NCBI GenBank assembly: GCA_036493895.1
Contig: DASXOZ010000033.1
Coordinates: 1 to 64,000 of the forward strand
Direction of reading: 5' to 3'
DNA length: 64,000 nucleotides
Source: Candidatus Binatia bacterium
Lineage (GTDB): Bacteria > Desulfobacterota > Binatia > UBA1149 > CAITLU01
In this document: piece after piece, positions 27,604 to 53,173 of the stretch
Position numbering within the stretch: position 1 is the stretch's first letter
How the letters are laid out: each line of letters begins with the position of its first letter
Notes under the pieces: model-generated
Seen by the model: only the letters and a program-made list of their open reading frames with translations
Told to the model about the DNA's origin: nothing
The model's database searches: none
Made by a program: the position numbers and the translations under genes

Positions 27604-27676
27604 ATATGTAATGGGGTCAGGCACCAGAAGAATGGGGTCAGGCACTATTCCCCTGGTGCCTGACCCCATTACATAT
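27604..27676. repeat. 24-bp perfect inverted repeat of REP-like type
   Basis: Arms 27604-27627 and 27653-27676 are exact inverse copies. Each contains AATGGGGTCAGGCACC or its complement. A further direct copy of AATGGGGTCAGGCAC lies in the loop at 27631-27645. It sits between the convergent cNMP-protein and PhyH genes and may also act as a bidirectional terminator. GGGGTCAGGCACC-type units are common near REP-associated (Y1) transposases, none of which is in this window. Confidence 0.75.
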
Positions 27677-44236: not shown

Positions 44237-44313
44237 GGCGATGTAGCTCAGGTGGTTAGAGCGAGGGCCTCATAATCCCTAGGTCGGTGGTTCGAGTCCA
44301 CCCATCGCCACCA
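44237..44313 (+). tRNA. tRNA-Met (CAT)
   Basis: A full cloverleaf with encoded CCA: acceptor GGCGATG/CATCGCC, D stem GCTC/GAGC, anticodon loop CTCATAA, T stem GGTGG/CCACC and T loop TTCGAGT. G1-C72 excludes the initiator. The anticodon stem has a C31-U39 mismatch (C44268, T44276) at the pair closing the loop. A tRNA-Ile2 (lysidine) identity is possible from the CAT anticodon, but the body looks like elongator Met. Its 3' end is the integration site of the island that follows. Confidence 0.93.
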
Positions 44314-44314
44314 C
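44299..44314 (+). repeat. left attachment repeat, inside tRNA-Met
   Basis: CACCCATCGCCACCAC, covering the 3' T-stem strand, acceptor 3' strand and CCA of the tRNA. An identical copy is at 53096-53111. Confidence 0.88.
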
Positions 44315-44425
44315 ATAGCACTCCATCCAAGTCCAACCCGATCCGCGCTTAGCATTAAGCCACCAGAAAGACTGCGCAATCTGTGCGGCCTAGGCCAATC
44401 TTGTCCATTGACAGCCGCCGTGCTC

Positions 44426-44508
44426 TGGGGGCACGATTGGGGGCATACCGAAATTTCCTGGGGCACCGCTTCCGAAAATGCCCCCGGAATCCCTGGAGGG
44501 TGCCCCCA
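44426..44508. repeat. cluster of TGGGGGCA sites at the left end of the island
   Basis: Forward copies at 44426-44433 and 44438-44445 (12 bp apart), a TGGGGCA variant at 44459-44465, and inverse copies at 44479-44485 and 44501-44508. A pair with the same 12-bp spacing is at the right end. They are good candidates for integrase/AlpA arm-type binding sites; the last also abuts the int start. Confidence 0.6.
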
Positions 44509-45704
44509 TGCCACTGACGGACCGCTCGGTTCGCAGCCTCAAACCCACTCAGAAGACATACCGTCGAGCCGATGGCCTCGGCCTCTACCTCGAAGTCTCG
44601 ACGACCGGGGGGCGACACTGGCGCTGGAAGTACCGGCACAAGGGCCTCGAGAAGCGGCTGGGCCTGGGCAGCTACCCCGAAGTCTCGATCCGCGAAGCCA
44701 GGACGCGCCGCGACGAGCTACGCGAGGAACTGCGGTCAGGGTCCGACCCTGCGGAGAAAAGGCGAGCCGCTAAGCAGGCCGCTTCCCAAGCGGTCGAGAA
44801 GGCTTCGGCTACCTTCGAGACCTTGGCGCGCGAATGGCATGGGACGCGGTCGAAGACCTGGGCGACGTCCCACAGTTCGCGTGTGTTGAGCCGCCTTGAA
44901 CGATTCGTTTTCCCGTACATCGGGGCGCGCCCCGTTGCCGACGTCGAGACCACGGAAGTGCTCGATTGCCTGCGCCGTATCGAAGCGCGCGACACGATCG
45001 AGACGGCCCACCGGGTACTGGCGAGCTGCCGGGGCGTGTTTCAGTACGCAATTGGAATCGGTCGTGCGGTCCGCGATCCGAGTCCCGATCCCCGCCATAC
45101 CCTGACCAAGAAGAAAGCTGCCCGGCACTTCGCCGCAGTAACGGAGCCGAAGGCGGTTGGCCAACTCCTGCGAACGCTTGAGCGGCATCGCGGAACACTG
45201 ACGGTCTCGTGCGCGCTGCGACTGGCTCCGCTCGTCTTCGTCAGACCTGGGGAGCTGCGTGCTTCTGAATGGGTCGGGATGGACCTTGACGCAGTCGAAT
45301 GGCGGTTCACGCTCTCGAAGACAAAAGGCGAGCACATTGTGCCGCTGTCACGGCAGGCGGTGGCGATTCTGCGCGAGTTGCAGCCGGTGACCGGCGGCCG
45401 TCGGTACGTCTTCCCGTCTGAGCGGACGCACAAGCGGCCGATGAGCGAAAACGCGCTCCTGTACGCGATGCGCGACCTTGGGGTCCCTGCAACCGAAATG
45501 ACACCCCACGGTTTCCGGGCAATGGCACGAACGATGCTCGACGAGCAACTCGGCTTTCGGCTGGACCTGATCGAGCACCAGCTCGGGCACGCCGTTCGCG
45601 ATCCGCTCGGGCGCGCCTACAATCGGACGACGTTTCTCGCCGAACGCCGCGACATGATGCAGCGGTGGGCCGACTACCTGGACACGATCAAGGAGGCGAA
45701 GTGA
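44508..45704 (+). CDS. int: P4-type tyrosine integrase
   Basis: A 398-residue integrase of the P4/DUF4102 group. The N-terminal arm-binding domain reads LTDRSVRSLKPTQKTYRRAD, GLYLEVS, then the GLGSYPEVSIREAR stretch. The catalytic domain shows Arg in FVRPGELR, HxxR in PHGFRAMAR, the second His in HQLGH and the nucleophile Tyr in AYNRTTFL. ATG 44508 has a TGGAGGG site; the frame extends upstream to 44478 without family features. It catalyses site-specific recombination at the tRNA end. Confidence 0.95.
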   Translation: MPLTDRSVRSLKPTQKTYRRADGLGLYLEVSTTGGRHWRWKYRHKGLEKRLGLGSYPEVSIREARTRRDELREELRSGSDPAEKRRAAKQAASQAVEKASATFETLAREWHGTRSKTWATSHSSRVLSRLERFVFPYIGARPVADVETTEVLDCLRRIEARDTIETAHRVLASCRGVFQYAIGIGRAVRDPSPDPRHTLTKKKAARHFAAVTEPKAVGQLLRTLERHRGTLTVSCALRLAPLVFVRPGELRASEWVGMDLDAVEWRFTLSKTKGEHIVPLSRQAVAILRELQPVTGGRRYVFPSERTHKRPMSENALLYAMRDLGVPATEMTPHGFRAMARTMLDEQLGFRLDLIEHQLGHAVRDPLGRAYNRTTFLAERRDMMQRWADYLDTIKEAK

Positions 45705-46363
45705 CGCGCCGCGATCAAAAGCGCGAACAGGATTCCGCCGTCACCATCGATTTCTCAACACAGAGCGAACGCTTGATTGCACAGGCCGGCCTACCTCCGC
45801 ACCTTCTGCCGAACGCGCGAAAGGCGGTCGCGGCGTCCAACGAGAGTATCGCCGTCGCGACCAACCTCGCGTGTGCGTATGCCTCGGCAGCTAGGGTGGC
45901 AGTCCTGCGGGAAGCCTTCGCTGCGGCGACAAAGTGGGCGCAGGGGAGCGGAGGCCTCCCCGCAAAAGAACGCGCCAAGTACGAGTCTGTACGTGGCAAG
46001 CTTGCCACACTTGCCGCGGGCGACGGCGAAGCGGCAAAGTACGCGGCCAACGCCCTGGGAGAGATCAACAAGGCGCTTCTCCTCGATGTGATCAGCGGGC
46101 TGAATCCCGTCCCCGATGCACGTCGAGGTGAGTACGCCGCCCGTGACGTGGCAAGGAGCTGGTGTCGGTGCACTGGTCATGAGGCCAAAGCTACCTGGGA
46201 CCAGTCCTCGAAGGCGGTCAAGAGCGGCCAGCTTCACCAGACTCCGCTGGTCCGGTTCGTTCAGAGCGTCCTTCGGACGTACTTCCCCGAGCTGACTGCG
46301 GGCGAGGTGAAGCGCGGAATCGAAGCCGCAGCTGCCGACCCTAACAAACGCGTCGGAAAATAG
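45701..46363 (+). CDS. unknown protein downstream of int
   Basis: A 220-residue soluble, Ala/Lys-rich and largely helical protein. It starts at GTG 45701, overlapping the integrase stop (GTGA), and so is translationally coupled to int. No domain recognised; a lone WCRCTG segment might bind metal. Coupling to int suggests a role in recombination or island maintenance, without further evidence. Confidence 0.55.
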   Translation: MTRRDQKREQDSAVTIDFSTQSERLIAQAGLPPHLLPNARKAVAASNESIAVATNLACAYASAARVAVLREAFAAATKWAQGSGGLPAKERAKYESVRGKLATLAAGDGEAAKYAANALGEINKALLLDVISGLNPVPDARRGEYAARDVARSWCRCTGHEAKATWDQSSKAVKSGQLHQTPLVRFVQSVLRTYFPELTAGEVKRGIEAAAADPNKRVGK

Positions 46364-46403
46364 ATCAAAGTACTAGGGCACGAACGGCGCCATCGCGCGC
46401 ACA

Positions 46404-46433
46404 TTCTCCTCGTCCGAAAACGCACGAGGAGAA
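46404..46433 (+). promoter_or_regulatory. RNA hairpin sequestering the alpA ribosome site
   Basis: TTCTCCTCGT pairs perfectly with ACGAGGAGAA (loop of ten). The 3' arm is the Shine-Dalgarno sequence of the AlpA-like gene that starts at 46440, so folding would hide it. Confidence 0.55.
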
Positions 46434-46439
46434 ATCGCG

Positions 46440-46739
46440 ATGCACAAGCTCCCTGAAACGGGCTTCTTCCGTCTTCGTCAGATTCTTGGCGACCGGAGGG
46501 CGAGTCCCAAAGTCGAACCCCTCATCCCGGTCTGCAAGAGTTCGTGGTGGGCGGGCGTGCGGTCGGGGCGCTACCCAGCTCCGGTGAAGCTCGGCCCGCG
46601 CACTACCGCGTGGCGTGTGGAAGACATCCGGGCGCTGATTGCGAGCCTTGCCGAGGCCGCGGGTTGCGCTCCGACGAAAACGGGCGACCAACCTACACCC
46701 GCAACTTCTCACAAAAACGACAACGCCGCCCTGGACTGA
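46440..46739 (+). CDS. AlpA-family regulator/excisionase
   Basis: A 99-residue protein with the AlpA layout: an N-terminal FFRLRQILGD start to the HTH, IPVCKSSWWAGVRSGRYPAPVKLGPRTTAWRVEDIRALIAS. The SSWW.GV..G.YP.PVKLG..T..WR..DI segment is diagnostic. AlpA proteins activate integrase or direct excision in P4-like elements. Its ribosome site lies in a hairpin (46404-46433). The stop lies inside another hairpin (46716-46755). Confidence 0.88.
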   Translation: MHKLPETGFFRLRQILGDRRASPKVEPLIPVCKSSWWAGVRSGRYPAPVKLGPRTTAWRVEDIRALIASLAEAAGCAPTKTGDQPTPATSHKNDNAALD

Positions 46740-46755
46740 GGGGCGGCGCGTCGTT
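46716..46755 (+). terminator. hairpin spanning the alpA stop codon
   Basis: AACGAC/GTCGTT plus CGCCGCCC/GGGCGGCG around a nine-base loop holding the stop. A T-run is missing, so termination strength is uncertain. Confidence 0.45.
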
Positions 46756-46866
46756 CCGTTCGGGATAATCCGACCGGTGTGCTGGTAAGCAGCCGCGAGA
46801 CTACCACGAACGACGTCCGCGCGTCACCGCTTTTGCCAGGGTCGCTCCTTCGATTTGGAGTTGACC

Positions 46867-47355
46867 ATGAAACATACAACGTTCGATCTCGCGCCGCTCA
46901 AGGCCAGGTCCATTGAACTGGCCGCGAGCCATTGCGGGATCGTCTTCGGACGCGACCGCAAGGCCTTGTGCCCGGCCCACGATGACAAGACCCCGTCGCT
47001 AAGCTACTGGCCGAAGGGGGAACTGTTCAAGTGCTGGTCTTGCGGCTGGTCTGGCGACATCGTCGCGCTCTACCGGCTCGTAACAGGGGCCACGTTCATT
47101 GTTGCCGCCAAGGCTCTCGGCGCGGCGCCATCCGGAGTGCTGCGACAACGCTCCCAGAAGCCCGCTGACGCGCGTCGCGAGGCTGGTGCGGTCGAGGGCA
47201 GCCTCTTCAGGCAGATCGCGTGCCTGCGAGACGTACTCGATCAGATCGCCGACGACGAAGAGCGGGACGTGACCACGCGCCTTGACGCGCTCATCTCCGC
47301 CCGGCAGTGCGACGAAACCCTCGACTCGATGCTCGCCATGGGAGCCGCCCAGTGA
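46867..47355 (+). CDS. CHC2 zinc-finger (DnaG-type) protein without TOPRIM domain
   Basis: A 162-residue protein. The first 70 residues are a primase-type zinc ribbon: CPAHDDKTPSL, then FKCWSCGWSGDIVAL (Cys, His, Cys, Cys). The remaining half is helical and lacks a TOPRIM catalytic core, so it is not a complete primase. It probably helps initiate replication of the island with the overlapping ATPase gene (GTGA). ATG 46867 is preferred for its fit to the domain start. Confidence 0.8.
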   Translation: MKHTTFDLAPLKARSIELAASHCGIVFGRDRKALCPAHDDKTPSLSYWPKGELFKCWSCGWSGDIVALYRLVTGATFIVAAKALGAAPSGVLRQRSQKPADARREAGAVEGSLFRQIACLRDVLDQIADDEERDVTTRLDALISARQCDETLDSMLAMGAAQ

Positions 47356-49289
47356 ACGCGGAGCAGGCACGCGAGGAGGCCGAGAAGGCTTTCAGGGAGG
47401 TTGCACCGAAGCCGCCAACGCTGGGCGAGGTGCGGTCCATGGCTGATCGGTGCGGCAAGACCGGGAGCGACGATGCCAAGAAGGCAGTCATGGTCGCATG
47501 GCGACAGCTCGACGACGATGACCGCGCGATCTCGTGCAAGAGTATTGCGACTGCCATCGACGTGCGCGTTGGGGGCCTGCGGCAGTGCGAAGCTCCGGCG
47601 GGTGACAGCGATGATGGTGGTGACGATCTTACGCAGGCGGACCGGCTGGTCGCCTACGCAGAAGACTTTGCGCTGTTTATCGATGCGCGCGGCGAAGCCG
47701 CGTTCGCCGACGTCGAGATCAATGGGCACCGGGAGACACACAAGGTCGATTCCAAGAGTTTCCGCGATGTCTTGCGGTCGCGGTACTATGCCGACAACGG
47801 CAAGGCAGCGCGCGGCGAAGTCATTGCCCAGGCTGTCGCCACCATCGAGGCCCGCGCGCTGTTCGCCAGCCCCGTGGTACGTCACGAGGTCCATCTTCGG
47901 AGTGCGAACGTCGGGTCGGCAATCTATATCGACAGTGGGAGGGAGGACTGGAGCGCGATCAAGGTGACAGCCGATGGGTTCGGCTACGACTTCAACCCCG
48001 ACGTCCGGTTCCGACGGACCAAGGAATCGCTGCCTATGCCAGAGTTCATGGACGGGGGCAGCGTCGGCGACCTGCTGCCGCTCATTAACGTGAAGTCCCC
48101 GGCTGATTTTATTCTGACTGTGGCGTTTCTGCTTCAGGTTCTTCGGGGAAAACCGAAGTACGTCCACCCGGTGCTGCGCGGCGAGCAGGGCTCCGGGAAG
48201 AGCGCCTATACCGTCATGGTCAGGTCGCTGGTCGATCCGGCAAACTCCGACCTGCGGTCACCGCCGCGCAACGAGGATGACCTGTTCTGCGCGGCGCAGG
48301 CTATGCTGGTTCTCGCCTTCGACAACTTGACGAGCGTCCCGCAGTGGTTGTCGGATGCATTCTGCCGCATGGGGGACGGCGGCAGTCTCGGCAAGCGGAC
48401 CCACTACGAGAATGACCTGGAGACCGTGCTGCGTGGCGGTCGGCCCATGATCTTCAATGGCATTTCCGAGGCCATTACGGCGGGCGACCTGGCCGACCGC
48501 GCAATGTTCATCAATCTTGAACCCATCCCGGAGGCGGCGCGCATCGACGACGACACCCTCGTCGAGATGCAAGACCGGGCGAGGCCGAGAATCTTTGGCG
48601 CACTGTTGCGCGCTTGTATGTGCGGCCTGCGGAACCTGCCGACGACGACGGTGAAGAACATGCCGAGAATGGCAACCTTTGCGCGATGGGTTGCAGCGTG
48701 CGAGCCCGCTCTGGTCGGGACCGTCATCGGCAAAGCACCCGACGGGACCGAGATTCGGTGGGAGGAGGGTAATTTTCTCGCGGCGTACCGCGGCAACCGG
48801 GCGGGTGCTGCCGAATCCGTTTTGGACGCCGATGTCGTGGCGTCTGAACTTCGGGCTTGGCTTCCGACTACCGCCGGATGGACAGGCGAGCCGAAGGAGT
48901 GGTCCGGCACTTCGACCGTGCTGTTCCAGGATTTGGGCCGCTACGCTGATCGCCCGGGCGGCCCGGCCAAGACGAAGGGATGGCCGACCAGCGCCACCGG
49001 CATGTCCGACCGCATTCGCCGGGCAGCACCGGCCCTTCGGCGCGTCGGTATCGACTTTTCGGAGAAGCGGAGAGCGACGACTCGTATCCTGACGCTTGCC
49101 AGCATCGCGCGACCCGAAACGGCCAGCGTTCGTCCCAGCGTGTCATCGGCGTCATCGACGTCACGAACCGAGTCGGCCGAGGGTCAGGATGACCTTCATG
49201 ACGGCGATGACGCGTCGATTCGAGGTTCGGACGCGATGATACCGAACGAAGGTCGGCCCGAACTGCCTGACAACGGCATCACGCTGTGA
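47352..49289 (+). CDS. P-loop ATPase/helicase-like replication protein
   Basis: A 645-residue protein with GTG start overlapping the zinc-finger gene. The P-loop is GEQGSGKSA (about residue 280), Walker B is MLVLAFDNL, and a sensor-like RPMIFNGI follows, an arrangement seen in phage and satellite replication ATPases paired with CHC2 proteins. The N-terminal 240 residues and the C-terminal region (AAYRGNRAGAAESVLDADVV, resembling a primase-helicase C-terminal part) have no clear catalytic motif. It is probably the island's replicative helicase. Confidence 0.75.
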   Translation: MNAEQAREEAEKAFREVAPKPPTLGEVRSMADRCGKTGSDDAKKAVMVAWRQLDDDDRAISCKSIATAIDVRVGGLRQCEAPAGDSDDGGDDLTQADRLVAYAEDFALFIDARGEAAFADVEINGHRETHKVDSKSFRDVLRSRYYADNGKAARGEVIAQAVATIEARALFASPVVRHEVHLRSANVGSAIYIDSGREDWSAIKVTADGFGYDFNPDVRFRRTKESLPMPEFMDGGSVGDLLPLINVKSPADFILTVAFLLQVLRGKPKYVHPVLRGEQGSGKSAYTVMVRSLVDPANSDLRSPPRNEDDLFCAAQAMLVLAFDNLTSVPQWLSDAFCRMGDGGSLGKRTHYENDLETVLRGGRPMIFNGISEAITAGDLADRAMFINLEPIPEAARIDDDTLVEMQDRARPRIFGALLRACMCGLRNLPTTTVKNMPRMATFARWVAACEPALVGTVIGKAPDGTEIRWEEGNFLAAYRGNRAGAAESVLDADVVASELRAWLPTTAGWTGEPKEWSGTSTVLFQDLGRYADRPGGPAKTKGWPTSATGMSDRIRRAAPALRRVGIDFSEKRRATTRILTLASIARPETASVRPSVSSASSTSRTESAEGQDDLHDGDDASIRGSDAMIPNEGRPELPDNGITL

Positions 49290-49813
49290 TCGCCGCCGCT
49301 CTGGTGACGGCCTGTGAGGCCGCCGGGATCGTACTATCGGTCACGACTGATGGAGGGCTCCACCTCCAGCCGACTCCCGATGCGGGGACGGTTGATCGGC
49401 TACGCGAGCACAAGGCGGAGATCCTTGCGCTCCTGCGCACGAAGACGCGCGAAGCTGGGGCGGGCATGTGCCGCCTCGATCCTGACTTCCCGGAGGTCGT
49501 GCCCGACCCAGAGGCCGAAGCAGCAGCCCTTGCCGATGGCTGGACGCGACGGCGCGACGGCCGCTGGGAATTTCCTGCCGGATGGTCGTCGCTCTACCCG
49601 CGCACGCCCGAGGGCGACGACATCGATTGGCCTGGCATCGACGCCCTGCGGGCCGCCAACGAGGTCCCCTTGCCCGACGACCGCCAGCCGGGCCCGGGCC
49701 TGCGTCCGCTGACCGAAGAGGAAAAGCGGCAGATCCGCACCGCGGGCGCGCCGCTCCCGCCGGGCGTCAGCTACGGCCGAACGCCGACCGGGCAGTGGAG
49801 GCGGCTGACGTGA
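49286..49813 (+). CDS. protein with TubC-N-like docking segment
   Basis: A 175-residue protein, GTG start overlapping the ATPase stop (GTGA). Residues 1-50 fit the TubC-N pattern: a short helix, VTTDGGLHLQPTPDAG, then LREHKAEILALLRT. The rest is Pro/Asp-rich (FPAGWSSLYPRTPEGDDIDW) and unknown. TubC-N-like segments often occur in small proteins next to island replication ATPases. It closes the replication operon. Confidence 0.6.
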   Translation: MIAAALVTACEAAGIVLSVTTDGGLHLQPTPDAGTVDRLREHKAEILALLRTKTREAGAGMCRLDPDFPEVVPDPEAEAAALADGWTRRRDGRWEFPAGWSSLYPRTPEGDDIDWPGIDALRAANEVPLPDDRQPGPGLRPLTEEEKRQIRTAGAPLPPGVSYGRTPTGQWRRLT

Positions 49814-50078
49814 ACACGTTCGCGCTTCCTCCGCGCACTAAAAGCCTACGCGGTCGTGATTCCGCTCTTTCGGACCGCATCACTGCCACCGGCCGCCCTC
49901 GCCGGTCAGGCTTCCCGGCCGGTCATTGCAGAAAGTAATCGGGATCACCGACCTGTAGCGAATTGACCCCCTGCCACTGATACCGCTTTGCGTGACCCCC
50001 GTCCGCGGGAGTAAAGGCCCGGACCAAGTAGGGCCGACGGCCGAGGCCGCCACACACGCCTGTTCCGGGAGGATTCAC

Positions 50079-51029
50079 ATGCGAAGCGTAGCGTCCGGCC
50101 TCATCGCCATCGGCATCCTTTTCTATTCAACCGCGGCGCTTGCGGGAGATGCGGCCCTTACTTGCGAGGCGAGCAAGCTCAAGCTGACGGCCAAGTACGG
50201 TTCGTGCCGACTGAACGCGGAATCCCAGGCGCTCAAGACGGGCGATCCGGTGAACTACTCGAAGTGCGACCTTTCGAAATTCACTGATGCGGAGACAAAG
50301 GCGGCCGGAGCGTGCCCGACGAACGGTGACGAGTCACCGATCCAAACCTACATGGACGACTGTGCCGGGCGCGTTGCAACCTCGCTCGGTGGTGGCGGCG
50401 GCATCCCCGACACTTGTCCGATCGACCTCGCGTCCTGCAACAGCGGCCTCGCGGTCTGCCACTCCGACTGCGTGGCGAGCGTAAGGCCGCCACTGCGCAC
50501 CGGCGAGACGACGTCTTACGGCACGGGGTCGGACGGTGATTTGCAGAAGGGCGCTGCGCGCTCGTTCACGGATAACGGAGACGGCACCATCACGGACAAC
50601 ACCACCGGCCTCATGTGGGAGAAGAAAGACAATTCAGGCGGTCTCCACGACCTGAACAACACCTACACTTGGTCAACCGGAACGAACAACATGGACGGCA
50701 CGATTACGACGGTGTTTCTCGCGAACATGAACAGCGCGGGCGGTTTCGCCGGTCATACCGACTGGAGAATTCCGAACCGTTTCGAACTGGAGACGCTTAT
50801 GGACTTGGGTGCCAGCATTCCGAGAACCTACCCGGCTTTCAACGCTGGCTGCACGGCCGGCTGCACCGTTGCGACGTGTAGCTGCACGCAGTCGGGCGGC
50901 TACTGGTCGTCCTCGACGTACCAGGACCTCCCGTCGTCCGCGTGGTTCGTGTACTTCGTCGTTGGGTACACGGACGCGGCCGGCAAGACGGACCTCGAAT
51001 ACGTCCGTGCTGTTCGCGCCGGCTCTTAG
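50079..51029 (+). CDS. island-borne secreted DUF1566 protein
   Basis: A 316-residue exported protein; ATG 50079 follows GGGAGGA, and a signal peptide spans 1-22 (STAALAG). A Cys-rich N-terminal region (about 25-140; CEASKLKLTAKYGSC, CPIDLASC) precedes a DUF1566 domain with DNGDGTITDNTTGLMWEK, WRIPNRFELETLMDLG, YWSSSTYQ and YVRAVRAG. The DUF1566 part is close to the chromosomal protein at 10559. The two Cys N-terminal regions differ. It has its own promoter region in the 265-bp gap before it and no link to replication genes, so it is cargo. Confidence 0.85.
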   Translation: MRSVASGLIAIGILFYSTAALAGDAALTCEASKLKLTAKYGSCRLNAESQALKTGDPVNYSKCDLSKFTDAETKAAGACPTNGDESPIQTYMDDCAGRVATSLGGGGGIPDTCPIDLASCNSGLAVCHSDCVASVRPPLRTGETTSYGTGSDGDLQKGAARSFTDNGDGTITDNTTGLMWEKKDNSGGLHDLNNTYTWSTGTNNMDGTITTVFLANMNSAGGFAGHTDWRIPNRFELETLMDLGASIPRTYPAFNAGCTAGCTVATCSCTQSGGYWSSSTYQDLPSSAWFVYFVVGYTDAAGKTDLEYVRAVRAGS

Positions 51030-51066
51030 CTCGATGATTCGATCATTTGTAATTTGACCATTGGGG

Positions 51067-51089
51067 GTCCGGGGGCGCAGCCCCCGGAC
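51067..51089. terminator. 10-bp hairpin after the DUF1566 cargo gene
   Basis: GTCCGGGGGC, loop GCA, GCCCCCGGAC: a perfect stem with a preceding GGG and following A. No T-run on either strand, yet compact and G+C-rich enough to act as a bidirectional transcription barrier or an RNA stabiliser. Confidence 0.55.
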
Positions 51090-51285
51090 ACTTCACAGGG
51101 CCGTGGTGCATATCGACACCGAGCGGTGACATCCGCACTCGCCTCGACGCTTCGCCGGCATTCCACGAAGCGTTTCCGGTAAACCGCAGGAAGCGCCGCC
51201 CAGACGCTAGGCGATACTTCCGCACCGACGACAGGGGGAGACGCGCCGCGTCGCGCTAGCGCGGCAAGCACAGCAGGGCGGCGCT

Positions 51286-51678
51286 CTACCGCCGCAGCAA
51301 CTCGCGAATCTGCGCATCCAGCTCCGCGCTCGACGCCAGCCGGTCCTCCGCCGCATCCAGCCCGTCCAGAATTCGCCGCAGCGCCGCGGGCTTTGCCAAA
51401 CCGCGGTACTCGCCAAGCGCCGTCGCAATGCACTTTTCCATGAGATCGGCGCGCAGCGCCTGCGCGTCACTGGCGAGCATCGAGCGGATTTCCTCGTAAC
51501 GCTCAGCGAACCAAGGGTCTGACTGCCACCGCAAGACGGTCCCGAGCGGTATACCCGAGGCTTCGACCGCTCGGACGCGCGAGCCGCTGCACTCCACCAA
51601 GGCGCGCAGGAAGGCCTGCTGGCGCTTGCGCAGCGCCGTGCGGCGGTCGAGCTGGCCGATATGGCGAGCTTTAGTCAT
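51286..51678 (-). CDS. TerS-like HTH protein (phBC6A51-type)
   Basis: A 130-residue protein. The segment RKRQQAFLRALVECSGSRVRAVEASGIPLGTVLRWQSDPWFAERYEEI follows the pattern of small-terminase and phBC6A51-type HTH domains (helix, AV.ASGI...TV.RW..DP.F...). ATG 51678 is chosen; two further ATGs upstream are possible. It is oriented against the rest of the island. In phage satellites a TerS-like protein redirects helper-phage packaging; that role here is inference. The 51030-51285 interval before it holds no gene. Confidence 0.55.
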   Translation of the reverse strand: MTKARHIGQLDRRTALRKRQQAFLRALVECSGSRVRAVEASGIPLGTVLRWQSDPWFAERYEEIRSMLASDAQALRADLMEKCIATALGEYRGLAKPAALRRILDGLDAAEDRLASSAELDAQIRELLRR

Positions 51679-51861
51679 CGGCAGCATTGTAGCGGCCACT
51701 GAGGCACTGGCAATGTCGCCGAGCGCGTCGAAATGGGCGGCTGCTGAGTCGGCTGTCACATAGCCGATGGTTTTGGACCGGCTACGAGTGATAGGTAAGG
51801 CGGCGTTCGTCGCAACGCGTATCACGCGCTCGGGAAGAACAGGCGGAGGCGGAGGGAACCA

Positions 51862-52629
51862 ATGGGAACGATGACCCCGGGGACTACCCGGCGTAGAAAG
51901 GGCCGAGCTTTGGCTCTTGCGGCTATTTTTGCCTTAGCGGCAGGCGCGGGCACAGCCGCGGCTCAGTGCGATTTCAATGTCGCGAACGCCAAGGGGATCA
52001 AAGGATCGATGGTGCGGGATTATGCGCCGTGCGCCGGAACCGAGCATCCGACTGCGCATGCGAATACGCACACAAGTGCCGGCACCAGCGCATGCACACC
52101 GGTAACGCCCGCCGTGCGCCGGCACCCTGACGGCGTTGGCGTCCCGACGGATTATACGTTTGGGGACAAAGGCCGATGCACGCTGTCCATGTCCTGGAAA
52201 CTTGTGGAGGACTGCTCGACGCTGACCGACTCCTCGGGCGCGCCGCTCGGCCTGTCGGCCAACCCCTGCCAGGTCACTTTCGTCAAGAGCAAGTGTACGG
52301 GCATCTATCAAGCTGACGGCGTAACTCCGATCAAGGGCGAAGACGGCGGCTGGTACCTTCACGCCGTCGTCCGCATGACTCTCGACGATGCAGCCGGCGG
52401 CGATATGACGGTCATGGATTACCCCGTGGACTTCTCCTACTCGACTCCCAAGGACGGGATGATCGCGATCAATAGCAGCACTGCCGAGGCGCTGATTCCT
52501 CGGGTGGGAGCGGGAAACGCAGGACTGCCTCCTTGCACGTCGATGGAAGTGGTTGGCATTTCGATCAGGGCTCCTAGCGGAATATACGGGAAGCCGTTCG
52601 CCAGGCTGGGCGGCGCGACGCGGCCGTAG
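51862..52629 (+). CDS. island-borne secreted protein of unknown function
   Basis: A 255-residue exported protein; GGAGGGAACCA precedes ATG 51862. Signal peptide about 1-34 (ALAAIFALAAGAGTAAAQ). The mature protein has six or more Cys residues and a repeated beta-like makeup (WYLHAVVRMTLDDAAGGDMTV, MDYPVDFSY) but no family I recognise. It is divergent from the TerS-like gene. With the DUF1566 protein, it is the second clear exported cargo. Confidence 0.65.
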   Translation: MGTMTPGTTRRRKGRALALAAIFALAAGAGTAAAQCDFNVANAKGIKGSMVRDYAPCAGTEHPTAHANTHTSAGTSACTPVTPAVRRHPDGVGVPTDYTFGDKGRCTLSMSWKLVEDCSTLTDSSGAPLGLSANPCQVTFVKSKCTGIYQADGVTPIKGEDGGWYLHAVVRMTLDDAAGGDMTVMDYPVDFSYSTPKDGMIAINSSTAEALIPRVGAGNAGLPPCTSMEVVGISIRAPSGIYGKPFARLGGATRP

Positions 52630-53087
52630 TGCCGGGGTGCACGTTCGGGCTATGCCAGCCCTATCCGCGTGCTACTTGACCTGCCATTGCCTCCCCAGAA
52701 CGCATTGGCTGGTACACCGCGCATTGACCGCAGCCGGAGTCGGACGCCGCTAGCGACCGCGCGAGCCGGGGGGCCGAGCGGCCCCTCCCCCGGCCTTGCG
52801 CGGTGCAGCGTTGGCGCGTTCGAATCGTGCTGGCTCCAGGCTTCGACGCGGTTCGCTCGGCATCACGCCTTGCGTCGTGGATCGGCGCGCACATGCGATG
52901 CTGCCCCGCAGCGAAATCGCAGAACGCGTGGCGGCATGCTTTGATATCGGTACTTCGAGCGATGCGCGTTCGCGCGGCAAGGTCGCGGGCAGGGCAGGGG
53001 CACTGAAATATTTGGGGGCATATCTGGGGGCATCGACACGCGTTCGATGCACGTAATCCTATACGGCGAGCCTACTTAGCGCGCTAT
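52630..53087. other. right end of the island, no gene
   Basis: No convincing coding sequence. It carries a pair of TGGGGGCA repeats at 53013-53032, and AGGGGCA a few bases before them. Confidence 0.5.
53013..53032 (+). repeat. pair of TGGGGGCA sites at the right end of the island
   Basis: Copies at 53013-53020 and 53025-53032, 12 bp apart, exactly as at 44426/44438. Probable arm-type integrase sites. Confidence 0.6.
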
Positions 53088-53111
53088 GTCGGTGGCACCC
53101 ATCGCCACCAC
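53088..53111 (+). repeat. right attachment repeat with an 8-base gap relative to the tRNA
   Basis: GTCGGTGG followed directly by CACCCATCGCCACCAC. Compared with the tRNA 3' half, the eight bases TTCGAGTC are missing between the two parts, so this copy cannot complete a tRNA. Confidence 0.85.
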
Positions 53112-53173
53112 CATCACACGGTCTATCCCGGTCACATAGGTCAATACGAAGCCGACGAACTCCGCACCCGGCA

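Follow-up and report, generated by a model that had tools for sequence, protein, structure and literature searches.

A phage-satellite-like integrative island at a tRNA-Met gene in an uncultured bacterial class

The island and its insertion site

The window (the whole stretch of 64,000 nucleotides that was analysed, from a Candidatus Binatia bacterium) contains an island of 8.8 kb bounded by two copies of a 16-bp repeat, the left of which forms the 3′ end of a tRNA-Met gene (Table 1). Read from that end, its genes encode an integrase, a protein whose gene overlaps that of the integrase by 4 nt, an AlpA-like protein, a CHC2 protein, a P-loop ATPase, a TubC_N-like protein, a cargo protein with an Lcl_C domain, a TerS-like protein and another secreted protein, with the TerS-like gene placed between the two cargo genes and on the opposite strand.

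Table 1. Coordinates of the island features in the window
Feature	Position	Strand	Basis
tRNA-Met (CAT), integration target	44237..44313	+	ARAGORN
Left att core CACCCATCGCCACCAC, tRNA-Met 3′ end	44299..44314	+	Repeat identity; empty site in G001
TGGGGGCAY pair, 12 bp apart, candidate integrase arm sites	44426..44446	+	Motif count
P4-type tyrosine integrase	44478..45704 (start could be 44508)	+	Family matches; L029 integrase 48% identical
Third left-end TGGGGGCAY, inverted	44500-44508		
Integrase-overlapping gene, 220 aa, no known protein family	45701..46363	+	4-nt overlap; position as PICMI iolg
AlpA-like excisionase/regulator, 99 aa	46440..46739	+	Pfam AlpA E=0.011; 42% to L029 gene
CHC2 zinc-finger primase-like protein, 166 aa	46855..47355	+	Zn_ribbon_DnaG E=4e-11
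P-loop ATPase, 660 aa, putative replication helicase	47307..49289	+	Phage/plasmid relatives; Prim-Pol-bearing relative
TubC_N-like protein, 175 aa	49286..49813	+	E=0.048; L029 likeness; same place in L072, L073, L192
Cargo: secreted protein with Lcl_C (DUF1566-type) domain	49992..51029	+	Lcl_C E=1e-23
TerS-like HTH protein, 179 aa (133 aa if start 51687)	51286..51825	-	phrog_4044; satellite TerS profile
Cargo: signal peptide by eye, no family	51862..52629	+	Family scans without match
TGGGGGCAT motif pair, 12 bp apart, right end	53013..53033	+	
Right att core, identical CACCCATCGCCACCAC copy	53096..53111	+	

The identical ends on which the original prediction had been built stand, with a repeat identity of exactly 16 bp. 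In a sister species of the same genus (G001) the tRNA-Met gene is joined directly to the right flank of the window, leaving the site uninterrupted, and a 22-bp flank marker (53120-53141) matches G001 save for one base and occurs only once in the genome of the window. The alignment to this empty site is short on the right-flank side because the two sequences part ways after about 30 bp, yet the empty site and the uniqueness of the marker together argue that the 16-bp repeat is not due to chance. The sequence shows an insertion at tRNA-Met made by site-specific recombination. The motif TGGGGGCAY occurs five times in the 64 kb against 0.63 expected, as two pairs and one single copy that all lie at the island ends, a placement that fits arm-type sites of the integrase and makes these repeats candidates for them. 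GC content was rejected as an island marker (0.644 versus 0.651), and promoter and terminator scans gave results at chance level. Elsewhere in the window, a 61-bp stretch (27610-27670) matches contig C30 of the same genome (L049:8415-8475) on both strands and is therefore a palindromic repeat shared within the genome. The candidate arm-type repeats, the integrase-overlapping gene, the Lcl_C cargo and the second secreted protein had all been omitted from the original prediction.

Genes for integration and putative regulation and replication

The integrase matches phrog_1 (E=2e-60) and comprises Arm-DNA-bind_3, Phage_int_M and Phage_integrase domains; the phrog_1 match and the first of these domains bear out its designation as P4-type. 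The next gene begins with a GTG start within the integrase stop (GTGA at 45701-45704), and such a 4-nt overlap recurs in two related islands described below, L029 (GTGA) and L072 (ATGA), and hence in three islands; since comparison of the window and L029 proteins revealed no sequence likeness, these two genes share position and overlap only. In the prototype PICMI, the int-overlapping gene is required for excision (PMC10803314). The AlpA regulator that had been proposed is upheld in part, for the Pfam match is weak when taken alone and falls below the cut-off, whereas L029, a sister island at tRNA-Val, has at the same place a gene whose product shares 42% identity with the window protein.

The CHC2 protein and the P-loop ATPase named earlier are confirmed, the former by its zinc finger (E=4e-11) and the latter by a Walker A sequence, GEQGSGKS, that is kept among its relatives, though no Pfam family was matched. 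Relatives of the ATPase occur on phages and plasmids, and one with 31% identity, encoded in the same genome (L020, contig C30), bears an N-terminal Prim-Pol domain ahead of the shared region, which supports a replication role for the window ATPase. L020 is a second integrative element, with an integrase, an excisionase-like gene and the Prim-Pol-ATPase protein, adjoining tmRNA. Another ATPase relative (L021, G019:C3:291513-297959) lies within a tRNA-Lys element that also has an integrase and a large-terminase gene, and G019 has a second TerL match, of equal score and length, at C3:249087. A seven-member ATPase alignment was rejected as a search profile for being too divergent, and comparison of the ATPase alignment with the PDB, where the sole matches were Walker A segments of ABC transporters and further P-loop proteins, was read as uninformative. 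As for the TubC-N-like protein, its family score is weak by itself (E=0.048), and what sustains the assignment is 47% identity over 47 aa to the TubC_N gene of L029. A TubC_N-like gene beside a replication ATPase is a repeated association in islands of distant hosts, for which no explanation was found in the literature.

Cargo and absent gene classes

Scans with Pfam, PHROGs, NCBIfam and PADLOC detected no structural or conjugation genes in the island, in agreement with the original prediction, and neither a relaxase nor a coupling protein was found in it; the same four scans matched no family to the second secreted protein. The Lcl_C domain occupies positions 50583-51017, and Lcl_C matches number 23 across the genome of the window, with C15, C16, C17 and C33 as the contigs of note. 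Four of the nine integrase genes in that genome have an Lcl_C match within 10 kb, where random positions on the same contigs would be expected to give a mean of 1.3 (P about 0.02), and in G002 (L077) an Lcl_C gene adjoins tRNA-Met itself. Tandem repeats of 108 bp in another related island (L192:7964-8503) are like those in the cargo gene of L029 (L029:5778-6425), which suggests that Sel1-type repeat proteins may be recurrent cargo.

The TerS-like gene and the search for a helper phage

The protein described earlier as a TerS-like HTH protein matches phrog_4044 (E=3e-5), mainly over the HTH. Its L072 counterpart matches five TerS families (best E=8e-7) and, among phage records, has eight matches, to six Streptococcus satellite phages and two unannotated fecal scaffolds of 6-7 kb, such that all of its named relatives in the phage database are Streptococcus satellite phages. 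A satellite TerS profile composed of L072 and five matching phage records, with the window gene left out, returned that gene as its sole match in 2,447 reading frames (E=3e-9), and with phrog_4044 this corroborates the description. The TerS-like protein of L029 matches a TerS family across 110 residues (E=4e-15), and BLASTP detected no homology between it and the window protein.

TerS-like genes of the same family also stand alone in a number of genomes from the class, where no integrase accompanies them, and the matches of some to TerS PHROGs are as good as those of the island copies. One of these is in the genome of the window (L189, G000:C75:9563-10033; phrog_4044 E=3e-9), with no integrase nearby, and a G050 match of the window TerS was rejected as an island for being such a stand-alone gene. 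Hence, a TerS domain is no proof of packaging, and a TerS-like packaging role for the window protein is one that we infer. Its structure model (mean pLDDT 63) gave weak fold matches only; the top-ranking ones include phage protein 2ao9 and small-terminase domains, with E>3, and the model was not used as evidence.

Viral contigs scanned with TerS, ATPase and the L029 TerS yielded no relatives, a scan with the TerS alignment gave two weak matches, and no close relative was found among these contigs. The helper prophage that the original prediction had proposed to look for was sought with models for TerL (phrog_2, phrog_9), portal (PF04860) and HK97 capsid (PF05065), all positive in control genomes and three of them also matching in relatives such as G011. 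None was recognised in the genome of the window, where nothing convincing was matched by the four models, a result limited to these phage types; phrog_2 gave two short matches (E=5e-4). With no recognisable resident prophage to serve as helper, a lytic phage or an absent temperate one is more likely to act in that capacity.

Related islands in the class

The search for related islands in the lineage that had been suggested as a check proved positive. A common core order (int, overlap gene, AlpA, CHC2, ATPase, TubC_N, optional cargo, TerS) recurs at three sites, unrelated to one another, within a single class (the window, L029 and L072), and in part in two further members (L192 and L199). L029, from the same bacterial family, occupies a tRNA-Val site between 16-bp repeats 8,831 bp apart; its integrase is 48%, its AlpA-like protein 42% and its TubC_N protein, over 47 aa, 47% identical to those of the window, CHC2 is kept, and TubC_N is followed by an ankyrin/Sel1-type repeat protein (by eye) and then TerS. 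Its middle ATPase is of the DUF3631 type and resembles the P-loop ATPase of the window over the first 94 residues only, so that ATPase types are swapped at the same position. L072, from another family, has an oxidoreductase gene as its target, at the 3′ end, and is flanked by 19-bp repeats spaced 6,311 bp apart; it consists of int, overlap gene, AlpA-like, CHC2, DUF3631, TubC_N-like, a 105-aa gene and TerS, with no evident cargo; the presence of a TerS-like gene in this cargo-free island marks that gene as core rather than cargo. L192 combines int, AlpA-like, AAA ATPase, TubC_N (E=2e-7) and TerS, and L199 is a 7.26-kb island whose TerS-like gene lies between tRNA-Arg and a partial tRNA-Arg copy, with the integrase at the far end. 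The TerS-like gene of every TerS-bearing island, five in all, is distal to the integrase, toward the opposite end. Two other loci (L025 and L078), located at contig ends, have the int-to-ATPase half alone, and Variovorax int-AlpA-TubC_N islands are similar, with no TerS by eye.

Interpretation and alternatives

The island is probably a small integrative phage satellite (satellites are parasites carried in the particles of another phage), a reading well supported by its anatomy because the core order recurs, the TerS relatives are satellites and structural genes are absent. The satellite inference of the original prediction is thereby strengthened as regards layout and the named phage members of the TerS family, and left without a recognised helper prophage. 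In such a satellite, the integrase, the overlapping gene and the AlpA-like protein would excise the island, the CHC2 protein and the P-loop ATPase would initiate its replication, possibly with the TubC_N-like protein docking replication parts, and the TerS-like protein would mark island DNA so that a helper phage, through its large terminase, would pack it; both secreted proteins, the Lcl_C one included, would be exchangeable cargo.

An island that excises itself and has its own replication module could instead forgo packaging and move by transformation or chance transduction, the TerS-like protein then being a host-type HTH regulator carried as cargo. The stand-alone TerS-like genes of the class, the largely HTH-confined match of the window protein and the existence of int-AlpA-primase-TubC_N islands with no evident TerS would all accord with this, but it is rendered unlikely by the constant placement of the TerS-like gene toward the non-integrase end (5/5 islands) and its retention in the cargo-free 6.3-kb one, by the L072 TerS, whose named relatives in the phage database are satellites, and by an L029 protein that matches TerS past the HTH. 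That the island is a decayed prophage, stripped of its late genes and left with int, regulator, replication genes and terS, is very improbable: temperate phages do carry int, AlpA-like, replication and TerS genes, and a relative of the ATPase occurs in a Microbacterium phage (two records), yet independent decay would not be expected to produce one compact order at different sites and in different families, the genes are intact and tightly packed, and two members are alike in size (8.80 and 8.83 kb between repeats). Least credible of all is a mobilisable element that exploits a conjugative plasmid via an oriT, for although plasmids of genera such as Methylobacterium and Streptomyces carry relatives of the ATPase, the gene-family scans found no relaxase or coupling protein in the island and a TerS-like gene would not be expected in such an element.

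Beyond the satellite reading itself, the islands may, more tentatively, form a separate satellite family of the class that lives on phages not yet known, defined by int, a 4-nt-overlapping gene, AlpA, CHC2 or another primase part, an ATPase, TubC_N and a TerS of the type found in Gram-positive satellites. Characterised satellites come mostly from a few well-studied hosts, and a family with a TerS core in an uncultured class would, if real, widen their known range, with the island TerS providing a handle for finding helper phages. Should packaging fail, what the data describe would remain a recurring family of tRNA islands in which replication ATPases are swapped.

Comparison with known satellites

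The PICMIs of Vibrionaceae, recognised by int, alpA and primase together, with an int-overlapping gene in most members, resemble the window island in being small (6.1 kb in the prototype), in having direct repeats, theirs of about 17 bp, and in the order int, 4-nt-overlapping gene, alpA (a weakly matched AlpA-like gene in the window), primase, accessory gene, with no capsid remodelling gene recognised (PMC10803314). They differ in inserting next to fis, as opposed to tRNA-Met in the window and tRNA or protein-gene sites in its relatives, in having a DUF3987/DUF5906 primase in place of CHC2 and a separate ATPase, and in a six-gene prototype without terS, whereas the window has TubC_N-like and TerS-like genes (PMC10803314). 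With Gram-negative PICIs such as EcCICFT073, some members of which have terS, the island shares int, an alpA-like gene, a putative replication module, a terS-like gene, an att site of its own and the lack of structural and lytic genes (PMC6092414). PICIs are also characterised by induction through a helper phage, interference with it and packaging in its particles. Trait by trait, an integrase with its own att site and flanking direct repeats is present in the window, no structural or lytic genes were found, as in PICIs, and a terS-like gene with a putative packaging role is present; the AlpA-/Stl-type regulator is represented by the AlpA-like gene with its sub-threshold Pfam score and L029 likeness, and the replication trait, in PICIs a primase/replication-initiator module with an ori after it, by the putative replication genes for CHC2 and the P-loop ATPase. 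The island is also smaller, at about 8.8 kb, than PICIs of typically about 15 kb (PMC6092414). Streptococcus satellite phages (Javan series), of 8-15 kb, include relatives of the L072/window TerS-like protein and likewise have an integrase at one end and a TerS-like gene toward the other, but their integrase, regulators and replication genes are unlike those of the island and their hosts are Gram-positive (PMC6813308).

Satellites of the P4 type, with which the original prediction had linked the island, share a P4-type integrase, a tRNA target and an AlpA-like regulator, whereas primase and helicase are separate proteins in the window; Pfam and PHROGs scans of the window found neither the P4 helper-hijacking genes (psu, delta, sid, epsilon) nor capsid-size or polarity genes, and P4 membership is not supported, the integrase alone being P4-type. 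Nor did Pfam and PHROGs reveal in the window capsid and packaging genes like those that cf-PICIs have of their own. In plan, the island is nearer to PICIs and PICMIs than to P4; it is a phage-satellite-like integrative element that is close to both and, by the tests done, a full member of neither.
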